This document shows positions 3,897-53,015 of a stretch of 64,000 nucleotides of DNA, in pieces. Under the pieces are notes generated by a model. That model ran no database searches, was not told the origin of the DNA, and worked only from the letters and a program-made list of their open reading frames with translations. Numbering within the stretch: the first letter of the stretch is position 1; every line of letters starts with the position of its first letter. Origin of the DNA: Bugula neritina (lineage: Eukaryota; Bryozoa; Gymnolaemata; Cheilostomatida; Bugulidae); assembly GCA_964035545.1 (NCBI GenBank), contig OZ037768.1, forward strand, positions 419,501 to 483,500, read 5' to 3'. The position numbers and the translations under genes are program-made.

Positions 3897-4437
3897 ATAT
3901 CAAGATATACACATAACACATGTAAATATACTATATAGCGATATACACATGTAAATATACTATATAGTGACATACACATGTAAGTATACTATATAGCGAT
4001 ATACACATGTAAGTATACTATATAGCGATATACACATGTAAATATATTATATAGCGATATACACATGTAAGTATACTATATAGCGATATACACATGTAAA
4101 TATACTATATAGTGACATACACATGTAAGTATACTATATAGCGATATACACATGTAAGTATACTATATAGCGATATACACATGTAAATATACTATATAGC
4201 GATATACACATGTAAGTATACTATATAGCGATATACACATGTAAATATACTATATAGCGATATACACATGTAAGTATACTATATAGCGATATACACATGT
4301 AAGTATACTATATAGCGATATACACATGTAAATATACTATATAGCGATATACACATGTAAGTGTACTATATAGCGATATACACATGTAAGTATACTATAT
4401 AGCGATATACACATGTAAATATACTATATATCAAGAT
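3897..4437. repeat. 29-bp minisatellite downstream of the EB-module gene
   Basis: About 18 tandem copies of a unit containing cgatatacacatgtaagta, differing mainly at gtaagta/gtaaata and agcgata/agtgaca. Each unit holds a gtaag motif, but no exon junction is adjacent. Confidence 0.95.
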
Positions 4438-6091
4438 ATACACCAACTTCCTTAGAGTCTATAACTCAACAGTCTATTATGCAGATGATTTAAGCAATTC
4501 CTTTGAAAGGAGAACTTTCTAGCTTTGAAATATAAAAATTTATTAATTTTCATATCTGAAATGTTTAGCCCGCATATGAACAATCTACTATATATGTAAA
4601 GCAATAGCAGAACAATATATATAAAATGATTATCTCTCTATAAACACTGCCAATATCAAAAACCACAAGTCAACTCTTGCTTGCTTTGTTACTAAACAAA
4701 ATTAATGTTTTACATTCTTACAATATACATGATAATACCTGTTTTAAGTTATAAACAATGTCTAAAATATTCTGCAGTGTCTGCGTATAACTGAGTATAA
4801 CTTCTCACTGGCTCTTCACTTTGTGTGGAAGATTTTAAGCTCCATAAGGGTATAGGTGTAGAAATTATAACGCTTGCAAGCGAAGAGTAGTGGGAGTTAT
4901 CTGTACTTGTCAAGTGACTATGGAGTTACTTTTTCTTACAACTTACAACTTATTGGCTAGTTTCGAAATTGTTAGCAACAGTTTCACCATCAATAATAGA
5001 AAGTAATGCAATGATTATCGTTAGCGCCTCGTTCTACATTCAACCTAGTAACGTTAGACGCTGGGTCTTACTGTCAAGCTTGATTTGATTACAATATAAA
5101 AGTCTGCACCATTGTTGGGACTGACTATTCACCGCATGAATTCTCTCATTTAGTTGTCCGGTTCTTGATAGCTTTGGGATTATAATGAAACTAAGACGTC
5201 TTCATCGCAGCAAATTTGAAGAATATCATAATCACCAAGATTCCTACAAGTTTACTTAGAAAGTCACAGTAAAGCTAGTAGCTCTTGTCCTAACACTTGA
5301 ACTTATTCTTAGGTTGAAGTATCGTTATTTTAAAATTATTAATAACATTATTATTATAATTCATTAATTGGAAGTTAGTGTAAGTGTTACTTGGTAGTTG
5401 TTGTAATACTTTAATAGTGATACTGATAGTAATAGGACACAGTGAAACCACGACTATCCGCGTGGTACATTCACATAATTAGTGACTGCTACTAGCTTTC
5501 TGGAATTTGATTTCAACTTGCAGTTGACTTTGTACTGTGATTTTTGTGTTGTTGCATGAGGGTTTCTACTGCAACTCACTCAGTGTTCACATTTTAGCCG
5601 CACTTTTAAATAAGAAGTTAGTTTTAGTTTAGGTTTGCGTAGCACAAGCCTTAGACTCTCTTGTTAATTTAAAGAGGTTTAAATCTTTAAAATCGTCGAT
5701 ATCTATCATCTATGACACTCAAAGTGAGAAAACAGTATTAGTATTACTACTTGTGTGAACACAAATAGTTAAATTTTATGTGGTTGATCACAACTTTCAC
5801 TCAACTCTACTTCTTCATAACGAAAAGGACAAACAGGTAAGTTTAGCTTCAACTGACGTAATGATAATCATTTGCCAAATTATTTAATTAAAGATTCTGC
5901 TTAGACTGAGAGTAGTTTATTTGAGTCGTCATATTCTGTAAAATTCTTATTCAAATTTAAAAAATACTGAGCATGTGTTCTTTTACTCTATTTTTTACAT
6001 TTTTTATGTCGTTTGGTTTTTGGAAGTCAGTCTTAAGCAGGTTTTCACTAATAGCAATCAACTTTCTAAACCATTCAATCTTGTAGAAATC
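4438..6091 (+). other. Intergenic and 5' region of BCKDK
   Basis: No coding exon is seen. A plausible 5'-UTR exon ends at 5836 before a strong donor (aaacag then gtaagt). A motif agtgatactgatagt near 5415 recurs upstream of RPC4. The coding exon containing the ATG begins somewhere before 6092, with its acceptor not fixed. Confidence 0.45.
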
Positions 6092-9000
6092 ATGAACTTG
6101 GTTACTGCTTCGAACTTCATCCGAATTCGAAAGACACATCTATTTCAACTTAGAAATCCAGAGTTTCCAGCCTTTTTCCAACGAGATCTAACACATTCGT
6201 CTAGTGATAATAAAAATGTTAAATTCAATGTGAATAATGTCTCAAGAAGGCTGGAGAGATCGAGGTCTGTGACATCATACTACTACAACAGTGCTCTGGA
6301 TGCAGCAGCCAGCAAAGTATGTCCCGCCTCTTATGTCCCGCCTCTTTATACCACTGGCTCTGATATAAGTGTGTTAATATCTGATTATGCTGTCTTTATT
6401 ACTTGAAGTTTTGTGAAAATTATTATATTAAGAATTGTTTGTTGAAATAATATATAGTTTTACCTAAATGTATGGATTTCACAGGATTCTGTGCGTTTGG
6501 TGCCCACAACTTTACTCTATACTGGAAAGAAACCAGACGATTCACATATGTTGGTAAGTCTAACTCTCTATGTCTATGGTGGGTATAACTCTCTATGTCT
6601 ATGGTAAGTGTAGCTCTCTATGTCTATGGTAAGTCTAACTCTCTATGTCTATGGTAAGTGTAGCTCTCTATGTCTATGGTAAGTCTAACTCTCTATATCT
6701 ATGGTAAGTCTAACTCTCTATGTCTATGGTAAGTCTAACTCTCTATGTCTATGGTAAGTCTAACTCTCTATATCTATGGTGGGTATAACTCTCTATGTCT
6801 ATGGTAAGTCTAACTCTCTATGTCTATGGTAAGTGTGGCTTTCTATGTCTATGGTAAGTCTAACTCTCTATGTCTATGGTAAGTGTAACATCTACTCTAT
6901 GTACACTATAATCATGCTCCACAACGTGGGGTACAAAGTCCCATTATATTTGTTCATCATTTTGTTGCCACGGTAACAAGATGCCTGAAGTTCTAGCTAC
7001 AGCCTGTCTTACGTAATTCATATTGTCTGATTACGCAATACTCCTGTCCTGAAACAATAACACTTGTTCTGTGTGTACAACAAGCTATAGTTTTCATTTG
7101 TCTATCTTGTATTGTTTTTCTCCATGTATTAGCCTACACAAGTTACTTCATTGTATGTTACTTCATTGTATGTTACTTTATTGTATGTTACTTTATTGTA
7201 TGCTGCCCATTGTATGTTACTCCATTGTGTATTACCTGCACTTAGGTTTGCATTGCATCACTATTATAATACATGCATAGTTGGCTAGTCCCAGAAAATA
7301 TCTTCTCTTGCCTCTACAACACTACATAACATGTAATACTAATATAATATAATACAATACGATATAGCATAATACAATATAATATCATATTATATAATAC
7401 GATATAACATAATACAGTATAATATAATACGATATAACATCATACAGTATAATATAATACGATATAACATCATACAGTATAATATAATACCATATCCTGC
7501 AGATGGGGGCTCAGTATCTGCACAAGGAGTTGCCTGTCCGTATTGCACACAGAGTGGCCGGCTTCAGAGAACTGCCATTCATTGTTGGCTGCAATCCAAG
7601 TATACTGCAAGTGGTAAGTATGTCAGTAATAATACGGTATTACTAGTTGTATAGCACATGGTGTAATACTGTATTACTAGTTGTATAGCACATGGTGTAA
7701 TACTGTATTACTAGTTGTATAGCACGTGGTGTAATACTGTATTACTAGGTGTATAGCACATGGTGTAATACTGTATTACTAGTTGTATAGCACACGGTGT
7801 AATACTGTATTATAATGTGTTACAGCATGAACTCTACATCAGAGCCTTCCAAAAGCTGACAGATTTCCCACCAGTAAGTATCGTCTCTCCAGCATACGAA
7901 TATCTGTATATACTATACACTCTGTACTGTATACTATACTATAGTAACTACTATACTATACACTCTGTACTGTATACTATAGTAACTACTATACTATACA
8001 CTCTGTACTGTATACTATAGTAACTACTATACTATACACTCTGTACTGTATACTATACTATAGTAACTACTATACTATACACTCTGTACTGTATACTATA
8101 CTATAGTAACTACTATACTATACACTCTGTACCGGTAGATTCAAAACCTGGAAGAGGACTCGGAATTCTGCAAGCTGATCCGATCGCTACTTGATGATCA
8201 CCGCGACGTAGTGACATTGCTAGCAGAAGGCTTTAAGGAATGTAAAAAGCACTTACCTGTAAGTATACAGTACCACTTACCTGTGAGTATACGGTGTGAC
8301 TTACCTGTAAGTATACAGTACCACTTACCTGTAAGTATACAGTATGACTTACCTGTGAGTATACAGTATGACTTACCTGTAAGTATACAGTACCACTTAC
8401 CTGTAAGTATACAGTATGACTTACCTGTGAGTATACAGTATGACTTACCTGTGAGTATACAGTACGACTTACCTGTAAGTATACAGTCAGACTTACCTGT
8501 AAGTATACAGTGTGACTTACCTGTAAGTATACAGTATGACTTACCTGTGAGTATACAGTATGACTTACCTGTAAGTATACAGTACCACTTACCTGTAAGT
8601 ATACAGTATGACTTACCTGTGAGTATACAGTATGACTTACCTGTAAGTATACAGTCAGACTTACCTGTAAGTATACAGTGTGACTTACCTGTGAGTATAT
8701 AGTCAGACTTACCTGTGAGTATACAGTATGACTTACCTGTAAGTATACAGTATGACTTACCTGTAAGTATACAGTCAGACTTACCTGTAAGTATACAGTG
8801 TGACTTACCTGTGAGTATATAGTCAGACTTACCTGTGAGTATACAGTATGACTTACCTGTAAGTATACAGTATGACTTACCTGTAAGTATACAGTCAGAC
8901 TTACCTGTGAGTATACAGTATGACTTACCTGTAAGTATACAGTATGACTTACCTGTGAGTATACAGTATGACTTACCTGTGAGTATACAGTCAGACTTAC

Positions 9001-12000
9001 CTGTGAGTATACAGTATGACTTACCTGTAAGTATACAGTATGACTTACCTGTAAGTATACAGTATGACTTACCTGTGAGTATATAGTATGACTTACCTGT
9101 GAGTATACAGTATGACTTACCTGTGAGTATATAGTATGACTTACCTGTGAGTATACAGTATGACTTACCTGTGAGTATACAGTATGACTTACCTGTGAGT
9201 ATACAGTATGACTTACCTGTGAGTATACAGTGTGACTTACCTGTAAGTATACAGTATGACTTACCTGTAAGTATACAGTATGACTTACCTGTGAGTATAT
9301 AGTATGACTTACCTGTGAGTATACAGTATGACTTACCTGTGAGTATATAGTATGACTTACCTGTGAGTATACAGTATGACTTACCTGTGAGTATACAGTA
9401 TGACTTACCTGTGAGTATACAGTATGACTTACCTGTGAGTATACAGTATGACTTACCTGTAAGTATACAGTCAGACTTACCTGTAAGTATACAGTATGAC
9501 TTACCTGTGAGTATACAGTATGACTTACCTGTGAGTATACAGTATGACTTACCTGTGAGTATACAGTACGACTTACCTGTAAGTATACAGTCAGACTTAC
9601 CTGTAAGTATACAGTGTGACTTACCTGTAAGTATACAGTATGACTTACCTGTGAGTATACAGTATGACTTACCTGTAAGTATACAGTACCACTTACCTGT
9701 AAGTATACAGTATGACTTACCTGTGAGTATACAGTATGACTTACCTGTAAGTATACAGTCAGACTTACCTGTAAGTATACAGTGTGACTTACCTGTGAGT
9801 ATATAGTCAGACTTACCTGTGAGTATACAGTATGACTTACCTGTAAGTATACAGTATGACTTACCTGTAAGTATACAGTCAGACTTACCTGTAAGTATAC
9901 AGTGTGACTTACCTGTGAGTATATAGTCAGACTTACCTGTGAGTATACAGTATGACTTACCTGTAAGTATACAGTATGACTTACCTGTAAGTATACAGTC
10001 AGACTTACCTGTGAGTATACAGTGTGACTTACCTGTAAGTATACAGTATGACTTACCTGTAAGTATACAGTATGACTTACCTGTGAGTATATAGTATGAC
10101 TTACCTGTGAGTATACAGTATGACTTACCTGTGAGTATACAGTATGACTTACCTGTGAGTATACAGTATGACTTACCTGTGAGTATACAGTATGACTTAC
10201 CTGTAAGTATACAGTCAGACTTACCTGTAAGTATACAGTATGACTTACCTGTGAGTATACAGTGTGACTTACCTGTAAGTATACAGTCAGACTTACCTGT
10301 AAGTATACAGTATGACTTACCTGTGAGTATACAGTATGACTTACCTGTAAGTATACAGTGTGACTTACCTGTAAGTATATAGTCAGACTTACCTGTAAGT
10401 ATATAGTGTGACTTACTCTCTACTACGCTATATCTGATTCAGGATAGCAGAGTCACCAAGACCTTCCTGGACAAGACGCTGACGTCTAGACTTGGTATTA
10501 GAATGTTGTGTGAATATCATCTGGCGCTGCATGAAGACAAGGTAACCACCTGTCACCACTTTGTGTCATGTGACACTATATGTCACTGTGTGTCACTTGT
10601 CACTTTGTGTCATGTGTTTCTATGTGTCGCATGTCAGTATATGTCACTGTGTGTCACATGTCACTTTGTGACACATGTGTGTTGGTTACTATAAAGTGCC
10701 CAATTCTAGGCTCTCCTAAGAATTCAATTTAATTTTCAACCTTTATTCCCTCACCAACCATAATATGGTGTGTAATTCCTTCACCAACTATGATATGGTG
10801 TGTAATTTATTTGGTAGTTGTGTTACATAAGATTGTAATACATAATTATAGTCTGTCTACATTCTATACGCTGCATGCACACGTTCACACACCGTGCTCA
10901 TCACGTTCACACAGTAGTTGTATCTCATGGTTTCTATGGTAACCTGTTTGCAGAGTTCAGCTTATTAACTTTGAGTTTATAGAGGAAATGCATGGGTTTA
11001 ATATGGTAAATAGTTGGCTACTGCATTATCTCATCTCCTTATTATATCTGAATTATATATGATAGAAAGATAGTAACCACTCGGTGTGTAGTTGAATGTG
11101 GCCCCTTGCCAGGTGGAGCATCGTGTGTTTTAATTTAACTGTTTTCTTTGTTCTGTCAAAATATGGTCGTAGTGATTGGAACAGAGCCAGATTTTTACTT
11201 AAGCAAAGCACATAAACCACTCTAATTACGTATGGCTATACCCAGGGTTTTGGTGAATAACTGGTGTTATATTATATATACCATGTAAGGTGTGATTCAT
11301 TGTTGACACCAGGTCAAATATATGGCAGTGTTTATAAACAATAATTCACTTGATATAATGAGTTGTGCATTCGTTTCCAATTTAGGTGCAGATGAACTTA
11401 AACTGCTCTGCAGTTCTTGTAATCTAGCATAAAATAGATGTTTAAGGTAGCAGCAGTAGTGCTAGTAATAGTAGTAGTAGTAGTAGTACTAGTAGTAGCA
11501 GCAGCAGTAGTGCTAGTAATAGTAGTAGTAGTGCTAGTAATAGTAGTAGTAGTGCTAGTAATAGTAGTAGTAGTAGTGCTAGTAATAGTAGTAGTAGTAG
11601 TGCTAGTAGTGCTGGTGATAGTAGTAGTAGCAACAGTGGTAGTAATAGTCATAGTAGCTAGTGTTATCTTTTACTGTATCGCACTGTGTATAATATTGCT
11701 ACTTTCTCCTTTCAGCCCGGACATGTTGGAATTATATCCGTTAACTTTCAACCTCGAAGACTCTTAGAGAAAAAGGCAGAATTTGCTCAGTAAGTGTTAA
11801 TAAATGTACTGTTAGTCACTCACCTTCAGTCACTCACCTTCAGTCACACTCGCCTTCAGTCACTCACCTTCAGTCACTCTTACCTTCAGTCACTCTTACC
11901 TTCAGTCACTTTCACCTTCAGTCACTCACCTTCAGTCACTCACCTTCAGTCACTCACCTTCAGTCACTCACCTTCAGTCACTCACCTTCAGTCACTCTTA

Positions 12001-14646
12001 CCTTCAGTCACATAAGATATATTTGATTCTCATCCTCTTCAGATGTAGAGATGTGAATTTTCGCGTAACAAGCAAAAAACTTCTCATGTTTCAAATATTT
12101 CTCAGAACTCAAGCTATTCACTGCAGCTACTTCACTTCACTACACTAACACCTTAGTACTTTACTTCACAGTCACTGCTACCACTACTTAGTCACTGTTA
12201 CCACTACTAAGTCACTGTTACCACTACTAAGTCACTGCTACCACTACTTAGTCACTGTTACCACTACTAAGTCACTGTTACCACTACTTAGTCACTGTTA
12301 CTACTACTTAGTCACTGTTACCGCTACTTAGTCACTGTTACTACTACTTAGTCACTGTTACCGCTACTTAGTCACTGTTACCGCTACTTAGTCACTGTTA
12401 CCGCTACTTAGTCACTGTTACTACTACTTAGTCACTGTTACCACTCCTTAGCCACTGTTACTACTACTTAGTCACTGTTACTACTATTTAGCCACTGTTA
12501 CTACTACTTAGTCACTGTTACTACTACTTAGTCACTGTTACTACTACTTAGTCACTGTTACTACTACTTAGTCACTGTTACCGCTACTTAGTCACTGTTA
12601 CTACTACTTAGTCACTGCTACCACTACTTAGTCACTGTTACCACTACTTAGTCACTGTTACTACTACTTAGTCACTGCTACCACTACTTAGTCACTGTTA
12701 CTACTACTTAGTCACTGCTACCACTACTTAGTCACTGTTACTACTACTTGGTCACTGTTACCACTACTAAGTCACTGTTACTCTGTAATATTATACTGTG
12801 TAATATTATACTGTGTGGCGTGTTGCAGGAAGATATGTGAACACAGGTACGGCAAGGCCCCTGCTGTCACTGTGAATGGACACATTAACTCCACCTTCCC
12901 CTACATTGCCGCCCCTCTCGAGTATATCATCATGGAACTACTTAAAAACGCAATGAGGTGATTTATGGCTAGCAGTCCAGCTACAGCTGTGCTACTTACC
13001 TCTGCCACTCACTGTAGAGTGTAGACTGTAGAGTATACCTACTTAGTCTCTAGTTATGTAATAGTGTTGCTGAGGTCCTCTATTGATTCAGGGGTGGGGC
13101 CATGACGACCCCTGAGAATGGTATTACTAAGACATCTGCTAGCATATAATTTAGAGGCAGATTATGTGTCCATTATCTGCTGCTGCTCCAGTGAACTATG
13201 AAATTATGTCCTGCAGTTTAGTATAATGTATACTCTGTACATCATATCTTATAGTTTAGCATAATGTATACTCTGTACACTATATCTTATAGCTTGATAT
13301 AATGTATACTCTATACACTATATCTTATAGCTTGATATAATGTATACTCTATACACTATATCTTATAGCTTGATATAATGTATACTCTGTACACTATATC
13401 TTATAGCTTGATATAATGTATACTCTGTACACTATATCTTATAGCTTGATATAATGTATACTCTATACACTATATCTTATAGCTTGATATAATGTATACT
13501 CTGTACACTATATCTTATAGCTTGATATAATGTATACTCTATACACTATATCTTATAGTTTAGTGTAATGTGTATTCTGTACACTATATCCATGCTGTAA
13601 CAGAGTTAGTGATGCTGTGATATTGCCACTATTCCAGGGCCACGGTGGAAGCTCACAGACATGCGTCACACCTTCCCCCTATAACTGTCACCATCGCCAA
13701 CAACGACGTGGATTTCCTCATCAGGTAACCCACCTAACTCACCTGTTAAGGTGTGCTAGCTCGCCTGTTGAACTATTAGTAACTCACCTGTTGAGGTGTG
13801 CTAGCTCACCTGTTGAGGTGTGCTAGCTCACCTGTTGAACTGCTAGTAACTCACCTGTTGAACTGCTAGTAACTCACCTGTTAAACTATTAGTATTATTA
13901 TCTTGTATTCTCCAAGTTGGAGTTTTCATACTAAAATATTTTCACTGATATTCAGAGTTGCCCTCTCGTCTTTTATGTTCTTCAAAAGGCGCACAACTCC
14001 AGTTTTCCCTCATCTGTACTAACTGCTGCTGTTACTCTCTCGCAGCAGCTAATTTCCTGTTGATGATGTCACTTCCTCTGACTTACAGGATCTCTGACAG
14101 GGGAGGCGGGATTCCACACGAACATATCAACCAAGTCTGGGACTACCACTTTACCACCGCTGACGGGCCAGGTCGCGACCCCCCTGACAATGATGCCGAC
14201 CAAAGTCCATTCCGAGCCATCATGTCTCCCCCTAATCAGGGTTCCCCGTCTGGTGCTATGTTCGGGTGAGTGCAGTACCCCACCCGACCTTGACAGTAAG
14301 CTACGGCATCACGTAGTTATTATATAATATAGTATATAGTTATTATATAATATAGTATATAGTTATTATATAATATAGTATGTAGTTATTATATAATATA
14401 GTATATAGTTATTATATAATATAGTATATAGTTATTATATAATATAGTATGTAGTTATTATATAATATAGTATGTAGATATTATATAATTGTATATACCA
14501 GGTTTGGATTTGGTTTACCTGCGTGTAAAGCGTATGCAGAGTACCTGGGGGGTTGCCTCACCATGGAAACGCTGCAAGGGATAGGGACAGACACGTATCT
14601 TAGACTGAAACACATTGACGGTAAAGGCATGAGCTTCAGGATATAA
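6092..14646 (+). CDS. BCKDK: Branched-chain alpha-ketoacid dehydrogenase kinase (mitochondrial)
   Basis: Eleven coding exons: 6092-6316, 6485-6553, 7503-7613, 7826-7873, 8139-8258, 10443-10541, 11716-11789, 12829-12957, 13638-13724, 14089-14265, 14502-14646; 427 aa, about family length (human 412). It phosphorylates and inactivates the E1-alpha subunit of the branched-chain ketoacid dehydrogenase complex in the mitochondrial matrix. Residues 1 to about 50 are Arg/Ser/Asn-rich with few acids, fitting a transit peptide. [20 protein letters not shown] and [16 protein letters not shown] are near-identical to animal BCKDK. The GHKL ATP site shows the N-box ELLKNAMR (Asn about 289), DRGGGI (about 324-329) and GFGFGLP (about 381-386). 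ATG 6092 is the first in-frame Met; upstream frame lacks an ATG. Exon 5 ends KHLP where vertebrates have KHIE, exactly where the donor repeat array starts. Confidence 0.96.
6547..6892 (+). repeat. 25-bp minisatellite made of donor-site copies, BCKDK intron 2
   Basis: The real junction is ATGTTG followed by gtaagtctaactctctatg. The intron then repeats this 25-bp block, giving about 14 donors in a row, mostly atg followed by gtaagt and two with gtgggt. The array begins at the splice site itself. Confidence 0.95.
7327..7497. repeat. 30-bp AT-rich repeat, 3' part of BCKDK intron 2
   Basis: About five degenerate copies of a unit containing aatacgatataacat, just before the acceptor at 7502. Confidence 0.85.
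7625..7820. repeat. 34-bp minisatellite filling BCKDK intron 3
   Basis: About five copies of a unit containing tactagttgtatagcacatg. It occupies almost the whole 212-nt intron, leaving only the donor gtaagt and the acceptor ttacag. Confidence 0.9.
7915..8132. repeat. 38-43-bp minisatellite in BCKDK intron 4
   Basis: About five copies containing agtaactactatactatac and ctctgtactg, starting some 40 nt after the donor and reaching the acceptor region. Confidence 0.9.
8251..10415 (+). repeat. 24-bp minisatellite, about 90 splice-donor copies, BCKDK intron 5
   Basis: Exon 5 ends in CACTTACCT followed by gtaagtatacag. The intron repeats gACTTACCT-GTAAGT/GTGAGT-atacagtat about 90 times without a break. 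Every unit is therefore a full copy of the exon-intron junction. The unit is 24 bp, so it reads on in the exon frame as an octapeptide like DLPVSIQY; the frame first closes where a unit carries tatatag, near 8698. A block of about 455 bp (8461-8919) is repeated almost exactly at 9565-10023, an offset of 46 units, which shows recent unequal exchange. Confidence 0.97.
11450..11660. repeat. (AGT)n trinucleotide tract, BCKDK intron 6
   Basis: Interrupted agt/aat/gct triplets, giving spurious poly-Val, poly-Leu and poly-Thr frames on both strands. It lies just before the exon 7 acceptor. Confidence 0.9.
11815..12012. repeat. 14-bp minisatellite, BCKDK intron 7
   Basis: About 14 copies of caccttcagtcact and variants, starting some 25 nt after the donor gtaagt. 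Confidence 0.92.
12170..12783. repeat. 20-bp minisatellite, BCKDK intron 7
   Basis: About 30 copies of a unit containing gtcactgttactactactta. It is a second array in the same intron, sharing the gtcact core with the first. Confidence 0.93.
13205..13590. repeat. 38-bp minisatellite, BCKDK intron 8
   Basis: About ten copies of a unit containing agcttgatataatgtatac, ending just before the exon 9 acceptor. Confidence 0.93.
13728..13890. repeat. 22-bp minisatellite at the donor of BCKDK intron 9
   Basis: About six copies built on ctcacctgttgaggtgtg, starting directly after the donor ATCAG-gtaacc. Confidence 0.85.
14315..14490. repeat. 23-bp AT-rich minisatellite, BCKDK intron 10
   Basis: About eight copies of a unit containing tagttattatataatatag. 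Confidence 0.9.
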
Positions 14647-15186: not shown

Positions 15187-18100
15187 CTATTGGTAATACA
15201 TGGAGTACGGGTTATTCATCATTGCTGTAGAGTGATAGGGTTGGGGTACAACAGGGGGTCCCCCTGGGTTATACTGATTAGCTGATGTAGATGACCAGTA
15301 CTGGTTAGGACGAGCACTTCTAAACAGACCCTGGGCCCCCATGCTGGCCGTGTGTCCAGTTATTAGGTTGCTATGGTAACTGGCCTGCATCAGCAGATCC
15401 TGGTGGTACTGGTAGTTGATGTATGCATTCTCCGTGCTGCTCTGGGGCTGCATTGCCTGGGCCAGCCCAGCAAAGTCAAACTTATACGCATACCTCTTAC
15501 CGTGCACCTTAGTCATGATATTTTTATCATAATAATATCGTAGCGCACGACTCAACTTATCGTAGTTCATGTTGGGTTTGCTCTTTCTCTCCCCCCACCT
15601 GCGCGCTACCTCATCCGGATCTACCAGTTTGAATTCTCCATTCGTTCCCTCCCACGTAATGGACGGAGCATTTCGGCTGTCTGATAGAAGTTCCAGTAAG
15701 AACTGCCACAGCTGGATCTGTCCACTTCCTGTAAGAGAAAAGGTCAGTGTTGTAGCTGCACACTCAATCTATTAATAAATAATAATATAGGGTCAGTGTT
15801 GTAGCTGCACACTCAGTCTATTAATAAATAATAATATAGGGTCAGTGTTGTAGCTGCACACTCAGTCTATTACTATAATATAGGGTCAATGTTGTAACTG
15901 CACACTCAGCCTATAAGGTGTGTATCTTGCCAGCCAGCTCTCCAATAATTTATATTATGCAGTATTATAATTATTATACCATCATATAGTGTATTATATT
16001 ATACCATCATATAGTGTATTATATTATACCATCATATAGTGTATTATATTATACCATCATATAGTGTATTATATTATACCATCATATAGTGTATTATATT
16101 ATACCATCATATAGTGTATTATATTATACCATCATATAGTGTATTATATTATACCATCATATAGTGTATTATATTATACCATCATAATATAGTGTATTAT
16201 ATTATACCATCATATAGTGTATTATATTATACCATCATATAGCGTGTTATATTATACCATCATATAGTGTGTTATATTATACCATCATATAGTGTATTAT
16301 ATTATACCATCATATAGTGTATTATATTATACCATCATAATATAGTGTATTATATTATACCATCATAATATAGTGTATTATATTATACCATCATATAGTG
16401 TGTTATATTATACCATCATAATAATATAGTGTATTATATTATACCATCATATAGTGTATTATATTATACCATCATAATATAGTGTATTATATTATACCAT
16501 CATATAGTGTGTTATATTATACCATCATAATAATATAGTGTATTATATTATACCATCATATAGTGTATTATATTATACCATCATATAGTGTGTTATATTA
16601 TACCATCATATAGTGTGTTATATTATACCATCATATAGTGTGTTATATTATACCATCATATAGTGTGTTATATTATACCATCATATAGTGTATTATATTA
16701 TACCATCATATAGTGTGTTATATTATACCATCATATAGTGTGTTATATTATACCATCATATAGTGTGTTATATTATACCATCATAATATAGTGTATTATA
16801 TTATACCATCATATAGTGTGTTATATTATACCATCATATAGTGTATTATATTATACCATCATATAGTGTGTTATATTATACCATCATATAGTGTGTTATA
16901 TTATACCATCATATAGTGTATTATATTATACCATCATATAGTGTATTATATTATACCATCATATAGTGTGTTATATTATACCATCATATAGTGTATTATA
17001 TTGTTTATTAAATGTAACTAAGTTTTACTTTGCATAACAATTTATTGGCTCGTGTAGTTACAGAATTTGCCAGAGAAATTTCCGATAACATATTATCTTG
17101 AGGTATAATTATATCTATAGGCAGATCTTCAACCTAAACACTTGAAACTGATGATGTGACAGCTCAAAGACAGCATAATACATAGTCAGCAACGCTGCCA
17201 GATTCTAATTACTGTGTCAATTAAATTTCAAGTTCAACTCTATATCTGTAATGGGCAGCAGTTCGTATAACTTCACACCTCCCTTCCTTCCTCGTACTTA
17301 TACGATAATGGAGAGAATTATGATAATTTGGCTAAAATCTAAATTTTTTGCCTAGCAACTGAAAATATTTTCTACATGTGTTAATCAAATGTAAAATAAG
17401 TTTAAACATTCTAAAAGTTGGTTTGTTTTATTTAATATGGAAAATATTCAAAATAATAAGAACAAAACTGCAATATAAAATATATTACGGCACAACCATC
17501 AAATAGCCTAATTTCTTACCAGTTGAAGCGAGACGGCTCGAGGTTGGCCCAAACAGCTGATAGGGATCCTGGGATAGCTGAGTTCCTTTCCAGGGAGATG
17601 TTGGTTCTAGTTTGGGAACTTTTCTCATTAAGGGGAGGTTAGAAGTTTCTACTTTTGGCGAGTTGAAGGCCGGATATGTAGTGTAATCAACGTGCACTAG
17701 AAATTGTAGAAATAGCTCTAATTACTAATTAAAATATTTATCTACTTAAATTCTAGTTTTTCCTGGCATAACACCATAGATGCGATCAGACTTAGACCAA
17801 TACAAACTTAATATAGATGTTTTAAAATAGTTTTACGTTAACATCATAGAATTATTAATTTCATGTTTGTTAAAAACTTGGAGAAATTTTTTTTGTCCAT
17901 TATGGTTCCCTTTGTATATAATCATGGATAATAAATATTCTTCGTATGAAAAATATTAATTCATTAGTTGAGTAGAATATAGGCACATAAATGGAAACCA
18001 GAATAAAATTAATGGAGTCAGAGAGAAAGTTTCAGCAGATGACTTACAGTTGGATGTCGGTGCTGGACAAGTTGGCCACTTGTAGTTGCCGGCAGCAGCA

Positions 18101-23002: not shown

Positions 23003-23115
23003 GGTGGTAGCAGTAGTAGTAGTAGTAGTAATAGTAGTAGTAATAGTAGTAGTAATAGTAGTAGTAGTAGTAGTAATAGTAGTAGTAGTAGTAGTAGTAG
23101 TGGTAGTAGTAGTAA

Positions 23116-24807: not shown

Positions 24808-27800
24808 TTAAAACTTTTTTTGGCGTTCAACTCGTTTCTTAGCTTCAAACTCAAGAAGTTGGGGGCTCTTGTAGCCACCCGCAGCCATGGGTGGACAGTA
24901 GGTGCCGACGAGCTTGTCCCAAGTGTTGAAGTACGGCTGGAAGTTGGTCATGGGTTTGTAGTGATGCATGTCGTGTTTGGGTGCTCCGCCATAGATGCCC
25001 AGGGGGAACCAGTGATGGGCCGCCCATGGGAAGTCAAATCCTAGAAACACAAGCACAAGTGAGAGAATGAGTCTAGAGTGAGAGACTGAGTCTAGAGTGA
25101 GAGAATGAGTCTAGAGTGAGAGAATGAGTCTAGAGTGAGAGAATGAGTCTAGAGTGAGAGAATGAGTTTAGAGTGAGAGACTGAGTCTAGAGTGAGAGAC
25201 TGAGTCTAGAGTGAGAGACTGAGACTAGAGTGAGAGACTGAGTCTAGAGTGAGAGACTGAGACTAGAGTGAGAGACTGAGTCTAGAGTGAGAGACTGAGT
25301 CTAGAGTGAGAGAATGAGTCTAGAGTGAGAGAATGAGTTTAGAGTGAGAGAATGAGTCTAGAGTGAGAGAATGAGTCTAGAGTGAGAGAATGAGTTTAGA
25401 GTGAGAGACTGAGTCTAGAGTGAGAGACTGAGTCTAGAGTGAGAGACTGAGACTAGAGTGAGAGACTGAGTCTAGAGTGAGAGACTGAGACTAGAGTGAG
25501 AGACTGAGTCTAGAGTGAGAGACTGAGTCTAGAGTGAGAGAATGAGTCTAGAGTGAGAGAATGAGTTTAGAGTGAGAGACTGAGTCTAGAGTGAGAGAAT
25601 GAGTCTAGAGTGAGAGAATGAGTTTAGAGTGAGAGACTGAGTCTAGAGTGAGAGACTGAGACTAGAGTGAGAGACTGAGTCTAGAGTGAGAGACTGAGTT
25701 TAGAGTGAGAGACTGAGACTAGAGTGAGAGACTGAGTCTAGAGTGAGAGAATGAGTTTAGAGTGAGAGAATGAGACTAGAGTGAGAGACTGAGTCTAGAG
25801 TGAGAGAATGAGTTTAGAGTGAGAGAATGAGACTAGAGTGAGAGACTAAGACTATAGGGAGACTGCATAGCATACTATTAGCTGAGAGATATTATACTGG
25901 TTAACTTACACTGTATGACTGGAGAATAAATCAATACGCCTCGACAGCCGAATACCCTGTGGGGTCAATAAGTGGGCCATACGTGTATATGACTAGTCAG
26001 ATGGTCTGATAATATGCTGGGTACTGTGTAGTGTGTAGTGTATACTGTGTAGTGTATACTGTGTAGTGTATACTGTGCAGTGTATACTGTGTGTATACTG
26101 TGTGTGTATACTGTGTGTATACTGTGTGTGTATACTGTGTGTATACTGTGTGTATACTGTGTGTATACTGTGTGTGTACTGTGTATACTGTGTGTGTACT
26201 GTGTATACTGTGTGTGTACTGTGTGTATACTGTGTGTGTACTGTGTAGTGTATACTGTGTGTATACTGTGTAGTGTGTACTGTGTGTGTATACTGTGTGT
26301 AACTGAATGCCAGATAATACCATAATAACTCGCCCTAATTGTTACTCCATAATGCTAAACTTATAAGTGATTAATAGCTTTTAAATGTCTAGTCAAATGA
26401 AGGTGGAAGTTGGTAGTTCAGAGCTGAGACTTTACTACAGTACAGTGAGCTAATGAAGGTGTCAGATAGATGACCTGAGGTGTCAGATAGATGACCTGAG
26501 GTATCAGTTAGATGACCTGAGGTGTCAGCTGGATGACCTGAGGTGTCAGATAGATGACCTGAGGTAACACTCACCGATGTGGGACTCTACAGCCACGATA
26601 ATGTTAAGCAGCATAAAGCTCCAGATGGTGAAGCAGTGACTGTCAAACAACCAGGGGATGAAAGTGGTGCCGAACCCCACAATAATGAGCTCCCAGGGGT
26701 GGAGGTACTGGGTGACCCAGCTGAAGGGGCTGTGGTATTCGTGGTGTATGGCGTGTAGCCATCTGTACAGGAAACGCACCTGTGATCATGCAATATTAGT
26801 ATGAAGGCTGAGTTACATTGTGGTACACACACTACTATGTATGCATATATACTAACTACAGAGTAAATATACTCATACGTGTTGAATTATATGAATATGA
26901 AGTAGAGAGATAACTCTGTAAAGAAACTGGCATGGAGCCAATGAGAAAAGCTTTAAAAGAAACTTGAAGCTAAGCAAACATGGGCTTTATATTTTTGATT
27001 TCTTTGTTAGATTAAATATTCCGGTTTAGCAATGCTGAAGGGGCACGTAGTATAGAGAGTATAGTATAGTATAGAGAGTATATAGTATAGTATAGAGAGT
27101 ATACGGTATAGAGAGTATATAGTATAGTATAGAGAGTATATAGTATAGTATAGAGAGTATATAGTATAGTATAGAGAGTATATAGTATAGAGAGTATATA
27201 GTATAGTATAGTATAGAGAGTATATAGTATAGTATAGAGAGTATATAGTATAGTATAGAGAGTATATAGTATAGTATAGAGAGTATATAGTATAGTATAG
27301 AGAGTATATAGTATAGTATAGAGAGTATATAGTATAGTACAGAGAGTATATAGTATAGTATAGAGAGTATATAGTATAGAGATAGAGAGTATATAGTATA
27401 GAGATAGAGAGTATATAGTATAGTATAGAGAGTATATAGTATAGTATAGAGTATATAGTATAGTATAGAGAGTATATAGTATAGTATAGAGAGTATATAG
27501 TATAGTATAGAGAGTATATAGTATAGAGATAGAGAGTATATAGTATAGAGATAGAGAGTATATAGTATAGTATAGAGAGTATATAGTATAGTATAGAGAG
27601 TATATAGTATAGTATAGAGAGTATATAGTATAGTATAGAGAGTATATAGTATAGTATAGAGAGTATATAGTATAGTATAGAGAGTATATAGTATAGTATA
27701 GAGAGTATAGTATAGTATAGAGAGTGTATAGTATAGTATAGAGAGTATATAGTATAGTACAGAGAGTATATAGTATAGTATATAGAGTATATAGTATAGT

Positions 27801-30800
27801 ATAGAGAGTATATAGTATAGTATAGAGAGTATATAGTATAGAGAGTATATAGTATAGTATAGAGAGTATATAGTATAGTATAGAGTATATAGTATAGTAT
27901 AGAGAGTATGTAGTATAGTATAGAGAGTATATAGTATAGTATAGAGAGTATATAGTATAGAGATAGAGAGTATATAGTATAGAGATAGAGAGTATATAGT
28001 ATAGTATAGAGAGTATATAGTATAGTATAGAGAGTATATAGTATAGTATAGAGAGTATATAGTATAGTATAGAGAGTATATAGTATAGAGATAGAGAGTA
28101 TATAGTATAGAGATAGAGAGTATATAGTATAGTATAGAGAGTATATAGTATAGTATAGTATAGAGAGTATATAGTATAGTATAGAGAGTATAGTATAGTA
28201 TAGAGAGTGTATAGTATAGTATAGAGAGTATATAGTATAGTACAGAGAGTATATAGTATAGTATATAGAGTATATAGTATAGTATAGAGAGTATATAGTA
28301 TAGTATAGAGAGTATATAGTATAGAGAGTATATAGTATAGTATAGAGAGTATATAGTATAGTATAGAGTATATAGTATAGTACAGAGAGTATATAGTATA
28401 GTATATAGAGTATATAGTATAGAGATAGAGAGTATATAGTATAGAGATAGAGAGTATATAGTATAGTATAGAGAGTATATAGTATAGTATAGAGAGTATA
28501 TAGTATAGTATAGAGAGTATATAGTATAGAGAGTATATAGTATAGTATAGAGAGTATATAGTATAGTATAGAGTATATAGTATAGTACAGAGAGTATATA
28601 GTATAGTATATAGAGTATATAGTATAGTATAGAGAGTATATAGTATAGTATAGAGAGTATATAGTATAGAGAGTATATAGTATAGTATAGAGAGTATATA
28701 GTATAGTATAGTATAGAGAGTATATAGTATAGTATAGAGAGTATATAGTATAGTATAGAGAGTATATAGTATAGTATAGAGAGTATATAGTATAGTATAG
28801 AGAGTATATAGTATAGTATAGAGAGTATATAGTATAGTACAGAGAGTATATAGTATAGTATAGAGAGTATATAGTATAGAGATAGAGAGTATATAGTATA
28901 GAGATAGAGAGTATATAGTATAGTATAGAGAGTATATAGTATAGTATAGAGAGTATATAGTATAGTATAGAGAGTATATAGTATAGTATAGAGAGTATAT
29001 AGTATAGTATAGAGAGTATATAGTATAGTACAGAGAGTATATAGTATAGTATAGAGAGTATATAGTATAGAGATAGAGAGTATATAGTATAGAGATAGAG
29101 AGTATATAGTATAGTATAGAGAGTATATAGTATAGTATAGAGTATATAGTATAGTATAGAGAGTATATAGTATAGTATAGAGAGTATATAGTATAGTATA
29201 GAGAGTATATAGTATAGAGATAGAGAGTATATAGTATAGAGATAGAGAGTATATAGTATAGTATAGAGAGTATATAGTATAGTATAGAGAGTATATAGTA
29301 TAGTATAGAGAGTATATAGTATAGTATAGAGAGTATATAGTATAGTATAGAGAGTATATAGTATAGTATAGAGAGTATATAGTATAGTATAGAGAGTATA
29401 GTATAGTATAGAGAGTGTATAGTATAGTATAGAGAGTATATAGTATAGTACAGAGAGTATATAGTATAGTATATAGAGTATATAGTATAGTATAGAGAGT
29501 ATATAGTATAGTATAGAGAGTATATAGTATAGTATAGAGAGTATATAGTATAGTATAGAGAGTATATAGTATAGTATAGAGAGTATATAGTATAGTATAG
29601 AGAGTATATAGTATAGTATAGAGAGTATATAGTATAGTATAGAGAGTATATAGTATAGTATAGAGAGTATATAGTATAGTATAGAGAGTATATAGTATAG
29701 TATAGAGAGTATAGTATAGTATAGAGAGTGTATAGTATAGTATAGAGAGTATATAGTATAGTACAGAGAGTATATAGTATAGTATATAGAGTATATAGTA
29801 TAGTATAGAGAGTATATAGTATAGTATAGAGAGTATATAGTATAGAGAGTATATAGTATAGTATAGAGAGTATATAGTACAGTATATATAGAGAGTATAT
29901 AGTATAGTATAGAGAGTATATAGTATAGTATATAGAGTATATAGTATAGTATAGAGAGTATATAGTATAGTATAGAGAGTATATAGTATAGAGAGTATAT
30001 AGTATAGAGAGTATATAGTATAGTATAGAGAGTATATATAGTATAGAGAGTATATAGTATAGTATAGAGAGTATATAGTATAGTATAGAGTATATAGTAT
30101 AGTATAGAGAGTATATAGTATAGTATAGAGAGTATATAGTATAGTATAGAGTATATAGTATAGTATAGAGAGTATATAGTATAGAGAGTATATAGTATAG
30201 AGAGTATATAGTATAGTATAGAGAGTATATAGTATAGTATAGAGTATATAGTATAGTATAGAGAGTATATAGTATAGAGAGTATATAGTATAGAGAGTAT
30301 ATAGTATAGTATAGAGGGTATAGTATAGTATAGAGAGTATATAGTATAGTATAGAGTATATAGTATAGTATAGAGAGTATATAGTATAGAGAGTATATAG
30401 TATAGTATAGAGAGTATATAGTATAGTATAGAGAGTATATAGTATAGTATAGAGAGTATATAGTATAGAGATAGAGAGTATATAGTATAGTATAGAGAGT
30501 ATATAGTATAGTATAGAGAGTATATAGTATAGTATAGAGAGTATATAGTATAGAGATAGAGAGTATATAGTATAGAGATAGAGAGTATATAGTATATATG
30601 TTGCTATGATACTAATTAGTAGAACAATGGAGTCCTGCACTACCTTATGAAACAGAGTGTGCACAACGTAGTAGTACGTGTCAAATATAGCAAAGCTGAG
30701 CACAATCTGCCATGTGTACTCAAACAGAGTGGGTGCCACCGGATCAAGAGGAAGTGGGGGTTGCCACACCCACTGAGCAACTGAAGCAGGAAGGATGTAC

Positions 30801-34546: not shown

Positions 34547-37500
34547 ATGTCTTCCAACAACAACAATTCATCCCTGAATGCGAGAGATGCCCCTCCTAAT
34601 GGTTCCGGAGAAAGTCTCCCAAGGGGGTTACTCGGTAAAGATGGTGTTCCGATGTCAAAGTCCACTCGCTTGAAGTCTTGTAAACAGGCTAGAGACCTGA
34701 CTTTAGGAGGTCCGCAGAGAAAAACATTCAAACCTAACATTCCTGTCCGACCACGAGATCGGCCCGGCACTAGCGGGTAACCGGGTGTTGAAATGCAAAT
34801 AATTTGATTTTTGTTGAATACTGATAAAATTTGTTAGTTATTATAAATTATTTCAAGCTATTAAATTTAGAAAACAAAATCATAAATTAATTTTTTTATC
34901 ATTTTAAGCCCGGTAGAGGATAAACTGCAGTTTAAAGAGAAAAAAGTAAAAAAGGAAAAGACAGACAGGCCTGGAGCGGGCGGCAAAGGAGGCCGCCCTA
35001 AAGGGCAGCGCAACTTCATTCAATCTCAGTCTATATTTGAAGCTGGGCCATCAGAAAAAAGCATTAAACGAGGTTTGATTGTAAAATTCTTTACTATTTT
35101 CACTATAACAATTATCATACACGGTATGCCTTTGACAAAACTATTTTGAAAAGAATTTAGATCCGCTGGAGATACAAATCTGGTGGAAAAGTTTTAATAG
35201 AAAGTCATAGCAGAAGTTCATATAGAGCTGGTTTCACATCTGTAGGACAAACTAACTAATATAAATACTTGTTCACTTTTTGGTATAATAACCGAACATC
35301 TAGGTGGTGGTGTGTATTAGTAAAGAGTTTCAAATACACTCAGCGTTTTAGCTCAGCTTATGTCTTGCCATATACTGTAGAGAGTATCTACAGCGGTGGT
35401 GGGGGTGGAGGGGGTGGCCGCAGTGGCGACTCTTACAGAGTATCCACTTCTGTGAAGGATCACAGGCCAACTAAAGCAGAGACTCAGGAAATTCTGGACC
35501 AACTTCTGCGTGACGATGTGAGTTATTACTAAGTAGTATATATAACTAGTATATATAACTAGTATATATAACTAGTATGTATAACTAGTATATATAACTA
35601 GTATATATAACTAGTACGTATAACTAGTACGTATAACTAGTATATATAACTAGTACGTATAACTAGTATATATAACTAGTACGTATAACTAGTACGTATA
35701 ACTAGTATATATAACTAGTACGTATAACTAGTATATATAACTAGTATGTATAACTATTATGTATAACTAGTATATATAACTAGTATATATAACTAGTATA
35801 TATAACTAGTACGTATAACTAGTATGTACAACTAGTATATATAACTAGTACGTATAACTAGTATATATAACTAGTATGTATAACTAGTACGTATAATTAG
35901 TACAACTGTGTCTTGCAGTTCATAGATGACGGAGAAGTAGTGGATATGACAGACCAGCCCGTTACATTACCTCTTCTGAATACGGTGAAGTATGAAGAGA
36001 GTGAGTGTTATATGGTGTCCTGTAATATATCCTCGTATTATGTAATATATGTGACAATGTAATGCAATATACAATCTAATACAACGTAATATATTATTAT
36101 ATGTAAGATAATACACCTAAACGTTGTATTCTAGTATCTAGTTAGTAACCACAACACAATATTGTACTCTGTAGTGATCAAGTCGGAGTTGAATATCGGG
36201 GAAGAGTCCAAGTTGGATCCTACAGACCCCTCCCTCTCGGCTCATGTGGTCAACCATACTGAAGGTAAGTACTGTATACTGAAGGTAAGTACTCTATACT
36301 GAAGGTAAGTACTGTATACTGAAGGTAAGTACTGTATACTGAAGGTAAGTACTGTATACTGAAGGTAAGTACTGTATACTGAAGGTAAGTACTGTATACT
36401 GAAGGTAAGTACTGTATACTGAAGGTAAGTACTGTATACTGAAGGTAAGTACTGTATACTGAAGGTAAGTACTCTATACTGAAGGTAAGTACTCTATACT
36501 GAAGGTAAGTACTGTATACTGAAGGTAAGTACTGTATACTGAAGGTAAGTACTGTATACTGAAGGTAAGTACTGTATACTGAAGGTAAGTACTGTATACT
36601 GAAGGTAAGTACTGTATACTGAAGGTAAGTACTGTATACTGAAGGTAAGTACTGTATACTGAAGGTAAGTACTCTATACTGAAGGTAAGTACTCTATACT
36701 GAAGGTAAGTACTGTATACTGAAGGTAAGTACTCTATACTGTGGGTAAGTACTGTATACTGAAGGTAAGTACTCTATACTGAAGGTAAGTACTGTATACT
36801 GAAGGTAAGTACTGTATACTGAAGGTAAGTACTCTATACTGAGGGTAAGTACTGTATACTGAAGGTAAGTACTCTATACTGAAGGTAAGTACTGTCTACA
36901 GGGGGTAAGTACTGTGTACTGAAGGTAAGTACTGTATACTGAGGGTAAGTACTCTATACTGAAGGTAAGTACTCTGTACTGAAGGTAAGTACTGTATACT
37001 GAGGGTAAGTACTGTATACTGAAGGTAAGTACTCTGTACTGAAGGTAAGTACTGTATACTGAGGGTAAGTACTGTATACTGAAGGTAAGTACTCTGTACT
37101 GAAGGTAAGTACTCTGTACTGAAGGTAAGTACTCTGTACTGAAGGTAAGTACTGTATACTGAAGGTAAGTACTGTATACTGAAGGTAAGTACTGTATACT
37201 GAAGGTAAGTACTGTATACTGAAGGTAAGTACTGTATACTGAAGGTAAGTACTGTATACTGAAGGTAAGTACTCTATACTGAAGGTAAGTACTCTATACT
37301 GAAGGTAAGTACTGTATACTGAAGGTAAGTACTCTATACTGAGGGTAAGTACTCTATACTGAAGGTAAGTACTGTATACTGAAGGTAAGTACTGTATACT
37401 GAAGGTAAGTACTCTATACTGAAGGTAAGTACTGTATACTGAAGGTAAGTACTCTATACTGAAGGTAAGTACTCTATACTGAAGGTAAGTACTCTATACT

Positions 37501-39361
37501 GAAGGTAAGTACTGTATACTGAGGGTAAGTACTCTATACTGAAGGTAAGTACTCTATACTGAAGGTAAGTACTCTATACTGAAGGTAAGTACTGTATACT
37601 GAAGGTAAGTATTGTATACTGAAGGTAAGTACTGTCTACTGTTGCAGAATCTCTGAAGATGATGTTAGTCCAGTTACCTGACTCCATGCCCGGGCTGATG
37701 GCAACGGAGGGTGACCGAGCTCCCCGCACCAGAGTGAAAGCTGAGCCTAAAGTTCCCCAGACTATGTCCACAGAAGCCGACCTGTCTGAGAAGTTGTCCT
37801 CCAAGTGCAGACTATCAGACCTGTCGGAGGGGAAGATTGGCAAACTGCAGGTCTTGTCTTCCGGAAAGATGAGACTTGTTCTTGGAGACATCATGTTTGA
37901 CGTGTCCCGCGGTGCTCCGTGCGGCTTCCTTCAGGTCAGGGGTCATGCAGTTACTATCACCGGCTTTCCATGTATCGATCTCAGCGAGATCGTTCCATGG
38001 ATCGATCTCCAAAGATCGATCTCAGTCGATCTGAGCTGGTCGGTCTGTGGAGCTCGAACTCAGATCGATCTCATGTCAATAAGACCATGGAAAGACGCCA
38101 GATCGATCTGAAAAGTAGAAAAATCTCTGCTCGCTAAAATGTTGTCTGCTAATGAAAATGATGACTTATTGTTAATTACTAAGCAAAGTACTTAATAATT
38201 AAGATAGCCACCTTTTCAGGTGGCAAAACTTTGACTTTCAGTACAATGATTAAGAAAACTCAATTATATGCAGTAAAAGGTAAAAAAAATGGGAGAATTT
38301 AAATTGAATTTAAATGACTATTAAAACTTAGTTTCATTAGCTATTTTCTTTGTAATTTTAAGCTTAACAGTGCTGTGAGTTTATTAATAATCTGCAAGAC
38401 AGCCACTAATTTTATATAAGCTGTCAAGCTAAAAAAATAAAATTAATTATTTTAAATTGGCCAAATTACCATACACTGAAAGCTTTGCTGCGTATAGTTT
38501 ATAGCTGGGATTAAATTTTAGACTACGACCATCTTGTTTACAACAGTAGTAGCTTTAATCACTCAAATAGGTGAACAAATTAGACTTTCAAAGTATCCTT
38601 CACTTAAGAGGAGGCAACTTCGCCGAGATCAATCTGACACTCTCATGGAAAAACGATCGATCTGAGCACATTTCTCAGATCGATCTTAGCGAGATCGATC
38701 TGAGATTGGTACATGGAAAGCCCGTGTATACTACTGTAGTCAAACGTTCAGTTAGATTGACTCCAATGCCATTTGAGGCGCTTCACATTTAAGCACCATT
38801 TATTATTATTTATATGGGATGATAGCTTCTTATGCAATAGACGTCTGCTAGTTAAATACAGCACTCCATCTTCACGTGCAGCTGGTGTCACTGTAGTTGG
38901 AGCATTCGGAGCTCCTGCAAATGTGACACCCTCAGTAAACGTCAAGCGTTTTATGGAGATGAATGAAACATTTTCAGTCATATATTAGCTGTGCAGTGAA
39001 TACTAGTTACGCAGTGAATACTGGACTCGGAAAAATGGATGCCCAGAGCGGTGTTGCTGATATATTTTAGTTTCCAATACGTGTTCTTTGTTTGACCTTG
39101 TTGTCTATGTCAGTTAAACATGTACTACAACAGAGTATCTCCGTATTTCAATGTATTCACTTTAACCACTGTTCTATGCCACTGTTGCTATATTCTTGGA
39201 GGGAATGCATTACCCGTCCCTTATTACAACTATTTCATCACTTGTAGGAATTAGTGTGTGTGGATACTGATGTTCCTGGAGACGGACAGATTGTATGTCT
39301 TGGACCAGTTACAGAGAAACTAGTTGTAGTGCCAAATATTGACAATCTGCTAAATACATGA
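34547..39361 (+). CDS. POLR3D: DNA-directed RNA polymerase III subunit RPC4
   Basis: Seven exons, 34547-34776, 34909-35072, 35381-35517, 35919-36000, 36175-36264, 37648-37934 and 39248-39361, give 367 aa (human 398). RPC4 pairs with RPC5 in the TFIIF-like part of Pol III, acting in termination and reinitiation of tRNA and 5S transcription. Diagnostic blocks: SKSTRLKS...RDLTLGGPQRKTFKPNI near residues 40-65; the basic linker with IQSQSIFEAGP (human IQSHSIFEQGP); ETQEILDQLLRDDFIDD; MLVQLPDSMPG; and the C-terminal domain LSEGKIGKLQVLSSGKMRLV...GAPCGFLQ. A Gly-run near 140 is unusual. Weakest point: the boundary between exons 2 and 3 (donor gtttga; acceptor at 35380), chosen because phase 1 matches. 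Intron 5 carries about 69 copied donors and intron 6 a transposon. Confidence 0.93.
35530..35900. repeat. 13-bp minisatellite, RPC4 intron 3
   Basis: About 28 copies of actagtatatata/actagtacgtata, beginning some 12 nt after the donor GAT-gtgagt and ending near the acceptor. Confidence 0.95.
36257..37640 (+). repeat. 20-bp minisatellite, about 69 splice-donor copies, RPC4 intron 5
   Basis: Exon 5 ends CATACTGAAG followed by gtaagtactgtat. The unit actgaag-gtaagtactgta is repeated about 69 times up to the acceptor gttgcag. Nearly every copy retains AAG-GTAAGT, the consensus donor; a few have GGG-GTAAGT. The array starts inside the exon and fills virtually the whole 1383-nt intron. Twenty is not a multiple of 3 and the frame meets a stop within two units, so use of a decoy would break RPC4. 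Confidence 0.97.
37958..38726. mobile_element. Non-autonomous DNA transposon, EnSpm/CMC-like, in RPC4 intron 6
   Basis: Terminal inverted repeats: left CACCGGCTTTCCATGTA at 37958; right end, read in reverse complement, CACGGGCTTTCCATGTA ending at 38726. TAT flanks both ends (3-bp target duplication). Both subterminal regions hold clusters of the palindrome AGATCGATCT and partial copies, in both orientations, as expected of transposase-binding repeats. No transposase ORF is present. TIR starting CAC, 3-bp duplication and subterminal repeats point to EnSpm/CMC; the family assignment is inference. Confidence 0.7.
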
Positions 39362-39557
39362 GCTCACTGGTACACCTCTACTAAATACATGAGCTCACTG
39401 GTACACCTCTACTAAATACATGAGCTCACTGGTACAGCCCTACTAAATACATGAGCTCACTGGTACACCTCTACTAAATACATGAGCTCACTGGTACACC
39501 TCTACTAAATACATGAGCTCACTGGTACACCTCTACTAAATACATGAGCTCACTGGT
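39351..39557 (+). repeat. 31-bp repeat including the RPC4 stop codon
   Basis: The last codons CTAAATACATGA and the following gctcactggtacacc are repeated about seven times into the 3'UTR. Confidence 0.93.

Positions 39558-41672: not shown

Positions 41673-53015
<11,343 letters not shown>

Follow-up and report, generated by a model that had tools for sequence, protein, structure and literature searches.

The window analysed here, the whole 64,000-nucleotide stretch of the Bugula neritina contig OZ037768.1, contains the gene of BCKDK, whose intron 5 (8259-10442) is to 99% a single tandem array with a 24-bp unit. Besides BCKDK, the genes of POLR3D (34547-39361) and CUL1 (41673-53015) were modelled, together with part of a minus-strand gene of the fatty-acid-hydroxylase family (PF04116). 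The BCKDK exons were obtained by spliced alignment to a BCKDK guide protein, except that exon 1 and the beginning of exon 2 were assigned by eye, as were the introns in POLR3D and in the minus-strand gene. The joined BCKDK protein has 427 amino acids, and BCKDK structures in the PDB match it at E-values of about 1e-153 to 1e-155. Within the best 120 of 1117 matches, the closest relative is that of Watersipora subatra, a cheilostome bryozoan, at 78% identity, followed by score by proteins of about 60-63%. Judged by protein identity, the DNA very likely belongs to a bryozoan, and to one other than Watersipora.

Tandem Repeats Finder (TRF) assigns to the intron 5 array a period of 24, 90.2 copies, 0% indels, and a score of 3527; the array was seen in one assembled haplotype. 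When it is cut at 24 bp, GT falls at the identical place in all 90 full units and belongs to GTAAGT in 45 of them and to GTGAGT in the other 45. An earlier sequence-only reading had described about 90 tandem copies of the junction, spaced by 24 bp and each carrying one of these two donors, and was right about this as well as about the location of the array and the end of exon 5, which spliced alignment puts at 8258, with exon 6 beginning at 10443. Across the 90 units 18 of the 24 columns are invariant, and ACTTACCTGTRAGTATA is kept by all of them. A search of the window for the 16-base core, allowing at most two mismatches, gives 90 occurrences, all within the array (0.52 are expected from shuffles). 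The unit is near-palindromic (ACTTAC-CT-GTAAGT), so that donor-like sequence is present on the opposite strand too. The frame of exon 5 is open up to a TAG at 8700, and the native donor and 18 decoys precede this first stop, in agreement with the earlier count of roughly 18. On the minus strand, the region 8198-10438 is open for 746 amino acids in one frame and 728 in another; these long frames are probably a mere consequence of the stop-free 24-bp unit.

Table 1. Positions of the BCKDK intron 5 array, its flanking exons, and other arrays that cross coding edges (window coordinates)
Feature	Position	Strand	Remarks
BCKDK exon 5, end CACTTACCT (H-L-P)	8139..8258	+	Spliced alignment; ortholog junction of equal length
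Boundary minisatellite, 24-bp unit, 90 copies	8251..10416	+	Starts 8 nt inside exon 5; TRF and unit table
BCKDK native donor GTAAGT, first copy	8259..8264	+	Mid-range donor score, rank 17/32
89 decoy donors, 24-bp spacing	8283..10400	+	Same as native from -3 to +6 in 44; G at +3 in 45
Units 8-27, 20-unit block (480 bp)	8419..8898	+	Exact repeat as units 54-73 (9523-10002)
Non-array tail of intron 5, acceptor CTGATTCAG	10417..10442	+	Spliced alignment
BCKDK exon 6	10443..10541	+	Spliced alignment
BCKDK exon 10, single exon	14089..14265	+	Corrected model
BCKDK intron 2 array, 25-bp unit	6552..6889	+	GTAAGT 12/14, GTGGGT 2/14; begins 2 nt inside exon 2
POLR3D array (intron e), 20-bp unit CTGAAG/GTAAGT	36256..37641	+	GTAAGT in 69/69 units; begins 9 nt inside exon
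POLR3D array over stop codon, 31-bp unit, 7 copies	39346..39557	+	Coding sequence ends at 39361
CUL1 intron 4 array over acceptor	42855..43111	+	12.2 copies; TTGTAG/TTGAAC 12 times including native; exon VELG
CUL1 intron 5 array, 25-bp unit: exon end (VTEYMRK) and donor	43245..43360	+	4 donors including native

Arrays cross coding edges at several other places in the window (Table 1). By the ends that TRF gives, four arrays cross a donor, namely those of BCKDK intron 2 (by 2 nt), BCKDK intron 5 (8), POLR3D intron e (9), and CUL1 intron 5 (22), one crosses an acceptor (CUL1 intron 4, 9 nt), and one the POLR3D stop codon. In a junction-swap test, the 16-base junction of each intron was matched to the interior of its own intron and compared with 31 other junctions. 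Three donors stand out, those of BCKDK intron 5 (15/16, best other 12), CUL1 intron 5 (16/16, best other 12), and POLR3D intron e (15/16, best other 12), and so does one acceptor, that of CUL1 intron 4 (16/16, best other 11). The donor junction of BCKDK intron 2 shows no distinction from other junctions in this test. CUL1 intron 3 was also flagged (11/16, best other 10), which is taken as chance, this being an 81-nt intron without an array. When the 12 exon bases alone were used, 3/32 introns were flagged on the donor side, CUL1 intron 5 and POLR3D intron e among them, and 1/32 on the acceptor side.

The lengths of related proteins suggest which of the repeated donors is used. Joining 8258 to 10443 gives KKHLP/DSRV, of the same length as KKHIPDGKL in Watersipora and KHIEDEKL in the BCKDK of PDB 8f5f; an insertion at the exon 5/6 joint is absent from 13 aligned relatives, and beside the joint D192 is invariant and H189 nearly so. 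Ortholog length implies the outermost donor for BCKDK intron 5 and POLR3D intron e, and the CUL1 alignment implies the first donor of intron 5 and the last acceptor of intron 4. For POLR3D, a gap-free match 98% identical to the model was found in P0121, a 367-amino-acid protein from a 1166-base contig (other relatives: Watersipora 60%, next 38%). As the gene spans 4.8 kb in the window, the P0121 contig would have to be spliced, and it joins ...VVNHTE/ESLK... exactly where the 69-copy donor array begins in the window. In the same gene, the stop-codon array repeats the last codons together with TGA, the coding end being NLLNT in P0121 and NLLKT in Watersipora. Most likely, the cell uses the outermost donor copy only. 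In mammalian extracts the intron-proximal of two equal donors is often preferred, which makes an outermost rule less obvious.

The direction of copying can be judged from the repeated exon letters. In CUL1 these encode VTEYMRK (intron 5) and VELG (intron 4), and in the human Cullin-1 of PDB 1u6g the residues are VTEYMKK and VELG. Because the copied letters encode conserved residues, the coding copy is the original and the intronic copies are derived; as read from these residues, the polarity of copying in the two CUL1 introns is from exon to intron. The edge of BCKDK exon 5 points more weakly to the same direction, through H and P common to Watersipora. In the intron 5 array of BCKDK, the exon-like unit ending in C is found as units 1, 3, 6, 14, and 60, the last of them inside a duplicated block. 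This block comprises 20 units, whereas shuffling the units 200 times gave repeated blocks of at most 7, and its exact repetition shows that the array grew in part by block duplication. With such duplication and only 13 unit types among 90, the cluster bears the marks of concerted evolution. In 39 arrays the units also show a modest excess of folding over shuffled units, with a median z of -0.71 (Fisher 1.5e-3, Kolmogorov-Smirnov (KS) 1.2e-4), as measured with mono-nucleotide shuffles only and with 4/43 arrays of TRF score at least 150 (at 23007, 43669, 60844, and 62654) omitted as low-complexity. Hairpin-assisted slippage is therefore a possible contributor to array expansion.

Very probably, BCKDK intron 5 carries a boundary minisatellite of the kind called "mirage" in amphioxus, with the outermost copy as the working donor and the inner ones lost when the intron is excised. 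It is proposed that tandem duplication, by slippage or unequal exchange and perhaps aided by hairpin-prone units, carried a short segment made up of the 3' end of exon 5 and the adjoining bases of intron 5 into the intron. Further copying, whole blocks of units included, would have enlarged the array until it took up its present share of intron 5. As the copy that remains joined to the exon, the outermost one would serve as the donor, possibly preferred through exon definition or as the first site bound by U1, and the inner donors would be spliced out. More tentatively, donors, acceptors, and stop codons may have been copied outward repeatedly in this bryozoan lineage as a major form of intron growth, with the spliceosome taking the exon-attached copy against dozens of identical sites.

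Several observations weigh against the mirage reading or its account of donor choice. The exon overlap in BCKDK intron 5 is short, and on the 12 exon bases alone its junction reaches 10/12 (swap p 0.06), no more than the best of the others. No BCKDK transcript of the own species was found, the matches reaching at most 78% identity in the best 120 of 1117 for the full-length protein and at most 72% in 46 matches for the junction fragment, and the octapeptides were not used as a query. The contig that encodes P0121 would be a spliced one, and the 69-copy array was seen in the window gene. Donors were also scored against the window's own donor profile. In BCKDK intron 5, 44/89 decoys share all nine bases with the native donor, the other 45 scoring lower; in POLR3D intron e 60/68 equal it and 8 are lower, in CUL1 intron 5 all 3/3 equal it, and in BCKDK intron 2 as many as 11/13 outscore it. 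Donor strength was thus rejected as a discriminator, the native site only tying for the top in three arrays and being beaten in the fourth. RNA openness was rejected too, with the native donor ranking 27/90 in BCKDK intron 5 and 33/69 in POLR3D intron e. The native donor being neither stronger nor more open in these two long arrays, no measured feature explains the choice there. In CUL1 intron 5 (of 4 donors) and BCKDK intron 2 (of 14) the native donor is the most open one. The RNA of 150 nt around the BCKDK junction has a more favourable fold than most of its shuffles (z -2.15; 7/200 shuffles are as good).

The explanation that competes best assumes no process specific to boundaries: minisatellites would grow anywhere in non-coding DNA and be halted by selection at, or a few bases into, coding DNA, a splice site being one edge among others. 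It shares the anatomy with the mirage reading and differs from it in cause, and it is given a substantial chance, somewhat short of even. In its favour are the straddled POLR3D stop codon, the wide scatter of arrays over introns and over DNA beyond the modelled genes, and the fact that 5/32 introns have junction-crossing arrays by TRF ends, of which 4 also stand out in the swap test. At a TRF score of at least 50, arrays occur in 27/32 tabled introns, covering 17,881/24,025 bp; two POLR3D introns outside the table (35073-35380 and 37935-39247) have no TRF array, and their addition gives 27/34 introns and 17,881/25,646 bp, about 70%, across the four genes. The table leaves out the introns upstream of 31308 and of an Ets gene, donors for which were not found, and all 32/32 tabled introns are GT-AG as a condition of their placement. 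Against this explanation, array starts lie nearer to donors than random placement would give (Fisher p 2.5e-4, KS p 4.6e-4), under a simple null that places arrays uniformly inside their own introns and takes TRF ends as given; on the acceptor side the same test is weak (Fisher 0.18, KS 0.03). At a score of at least 150, with arrays in 25/32 introns, the Fisher values are 2.6e-3 for donors and 0.07 for acceptors. A sense GTRAGT is also present in 5/30 intronic units, against 0.3 expected from shuffled units, though an antisense one is present in 3/30.

It is unlikely that the intron was itself born from the array, by tandem duplication of a coding AG/GT site. POLR3D intron e and CUL1 intron 5, which are almost wholly copies of an exon edge, would suit such a gain of the Rogers type, but the acceptor of BCKDK intron 5 (TCAG ending at 10442) lies outside its array, which ends at 10416. 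Retention of the decoys for a function, as repeated U1 binding sites that aid transcription or splicing of a long intron, appears very improbable. It could be supported by the donor positions G1, T2, G5, and T6, which are constant throughout three arrays (column counting gives p about 0.014, a choice made after the data were seen), and by the fully invariant hexamer of POLR3D intron e, matched by only 3/20 windows. However, the donor hexamers are as variable as other windows in BCKDK intron 5 (17/24 as low) and intron 2 (17/25), and block copying accounts for the uniformity; selection on the donor core was not clear from these variability tests. Least credible of all is a generator of protein length, with inner donors used at will and 1-18 octapeptides (e.g., DLPVSIQY) placed between KKHLP and DSRV, for although 24 is divisible by 3, the frame is open over 18 decoys, and 44 decoys match the native donor, the other three donor-straddling units (25, 25, and 20 bp) would shift frames, the insert would adjoin D192 and H189 at a joint where no relative has one, and an open frame over a short stop-free unit would need no selection. 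The sequence-only reading had offered two views of the array, a tolerated splicing burden or a source of length-variable protein; the first fits better, and protein diversity seems unlikely for BCKDK, given the ortholog-length joint and the frame-shifting units elsewhere.

Other arrays in the window deserve a brief description. At 3916-4443 there are 18 copies of a 29-bp unit whose consensus contains GTAAGTAT. A 21-bp unit is repeated 172 times over 3.5 kb at 27048-30596, in an array that has a strong GC skew and makes up 92% of an intron in the minus-strand fatty-acid-hydroxylase-like gene. The arrays of BCKDK introns 7 (11814-12011) and 9 (13734-13884) carry the donor-like GTGAGT in antisense. 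A minus-strand exon of an Ets domain (PF00178) lies at 15190-15768, and an array stops about 13 nt short of its likely acceptor. Scans for tRNA genes and Rfam families gave nothing at their thresholds.

The sequence-only reading knew of no described intron family with such an architecture, which was mistaken. In amphioxus, "mirages" are minisatellites with a repeat unit that straddles an exon-intron boundary, either 5' or 3', and they are described in Adh3 and in the globins BflGb6 and BflGb9, where many copies bear AG/GT signals, the units of a cluster evolve in concert, and splicing is reportedly undisturbed (PMC3087553, PMC3902484). PGBD5 and troponin C are likened to mirages (PMC3902484). 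The BCKDK array has the structural features of a mirage: its unit spans the boundary, and all 90 copies carry the donor signal. In the CUL1 intron 4 array, 12 copies carry the AG. The BCKDK array differs in its phylum and in scale, with 90 and 69 copies (BCKDK intron 5 and POLR3D intron e) compared with the 6 and 3 units given there for two BflGb6 haplotypes. Moreover, every copy in BCKDK intron 5 and POLR3D intron e keeps its donor, several arrays occur within 64 kb, and one lies at a stop codon.

Introns may also be gained when AGGT-containing sequence is duplicated in tandem, a process that PMC3087553 cites and that was proposed for amphioxus globins. It resembles the present case in the duplicated exon edge with splice signals and in an intron built of copies. 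The likeness does not extend to both splice sites, since in BCKDK intron 5 the acceptor stands outside the array. In human segmental duplications, variable internal tandem repeats have been reported at the exon-intron boundaries of recent paralogs, with an average of 4 copies of 30 bp, and 66% of the intron modifications had a supporting alternative transcript (PMC2812944). These too are minisatellite expansions at a boundary, linked there to novel introns. Introner elements likewise fill an intron with a repeat, and place one sequence at many loci. Unlike them, the BCKDK intron 5 core was found within the window only in its own array, and 28 arrays share almost nothing (any common 13-mer in 11/378 pairs, at most 8 13-mers).

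No bryozoan report of such arrays was among the matches listed in the literature search, and the words "intron" and "satellite" are absent from the part of the Flustra genome paper that was available. As far as the searched literature goes, the phylum, the copy numbers of 90 and 69, the density per window, and the stop-codon case are new. Studies of how a cell selects one of several equal donors usually employ two or three engineered sites, and here a natural test is offered by two introns, with 90 and 69 donors. Since the identical nine-base donor is present 45 times in BCKDK intron 5 and 61 times in POLR3D intron e, the native site included, the effect of position alone could be tested. BCKDK intron 5 and its neighbours present a visible mode of intron growth. 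If they prove frequent in bryozoans, then such arrays would show how introns lengthen and shift, as was argued earlier from a few amphioxus genes (PMC3087553, PMC3902484).

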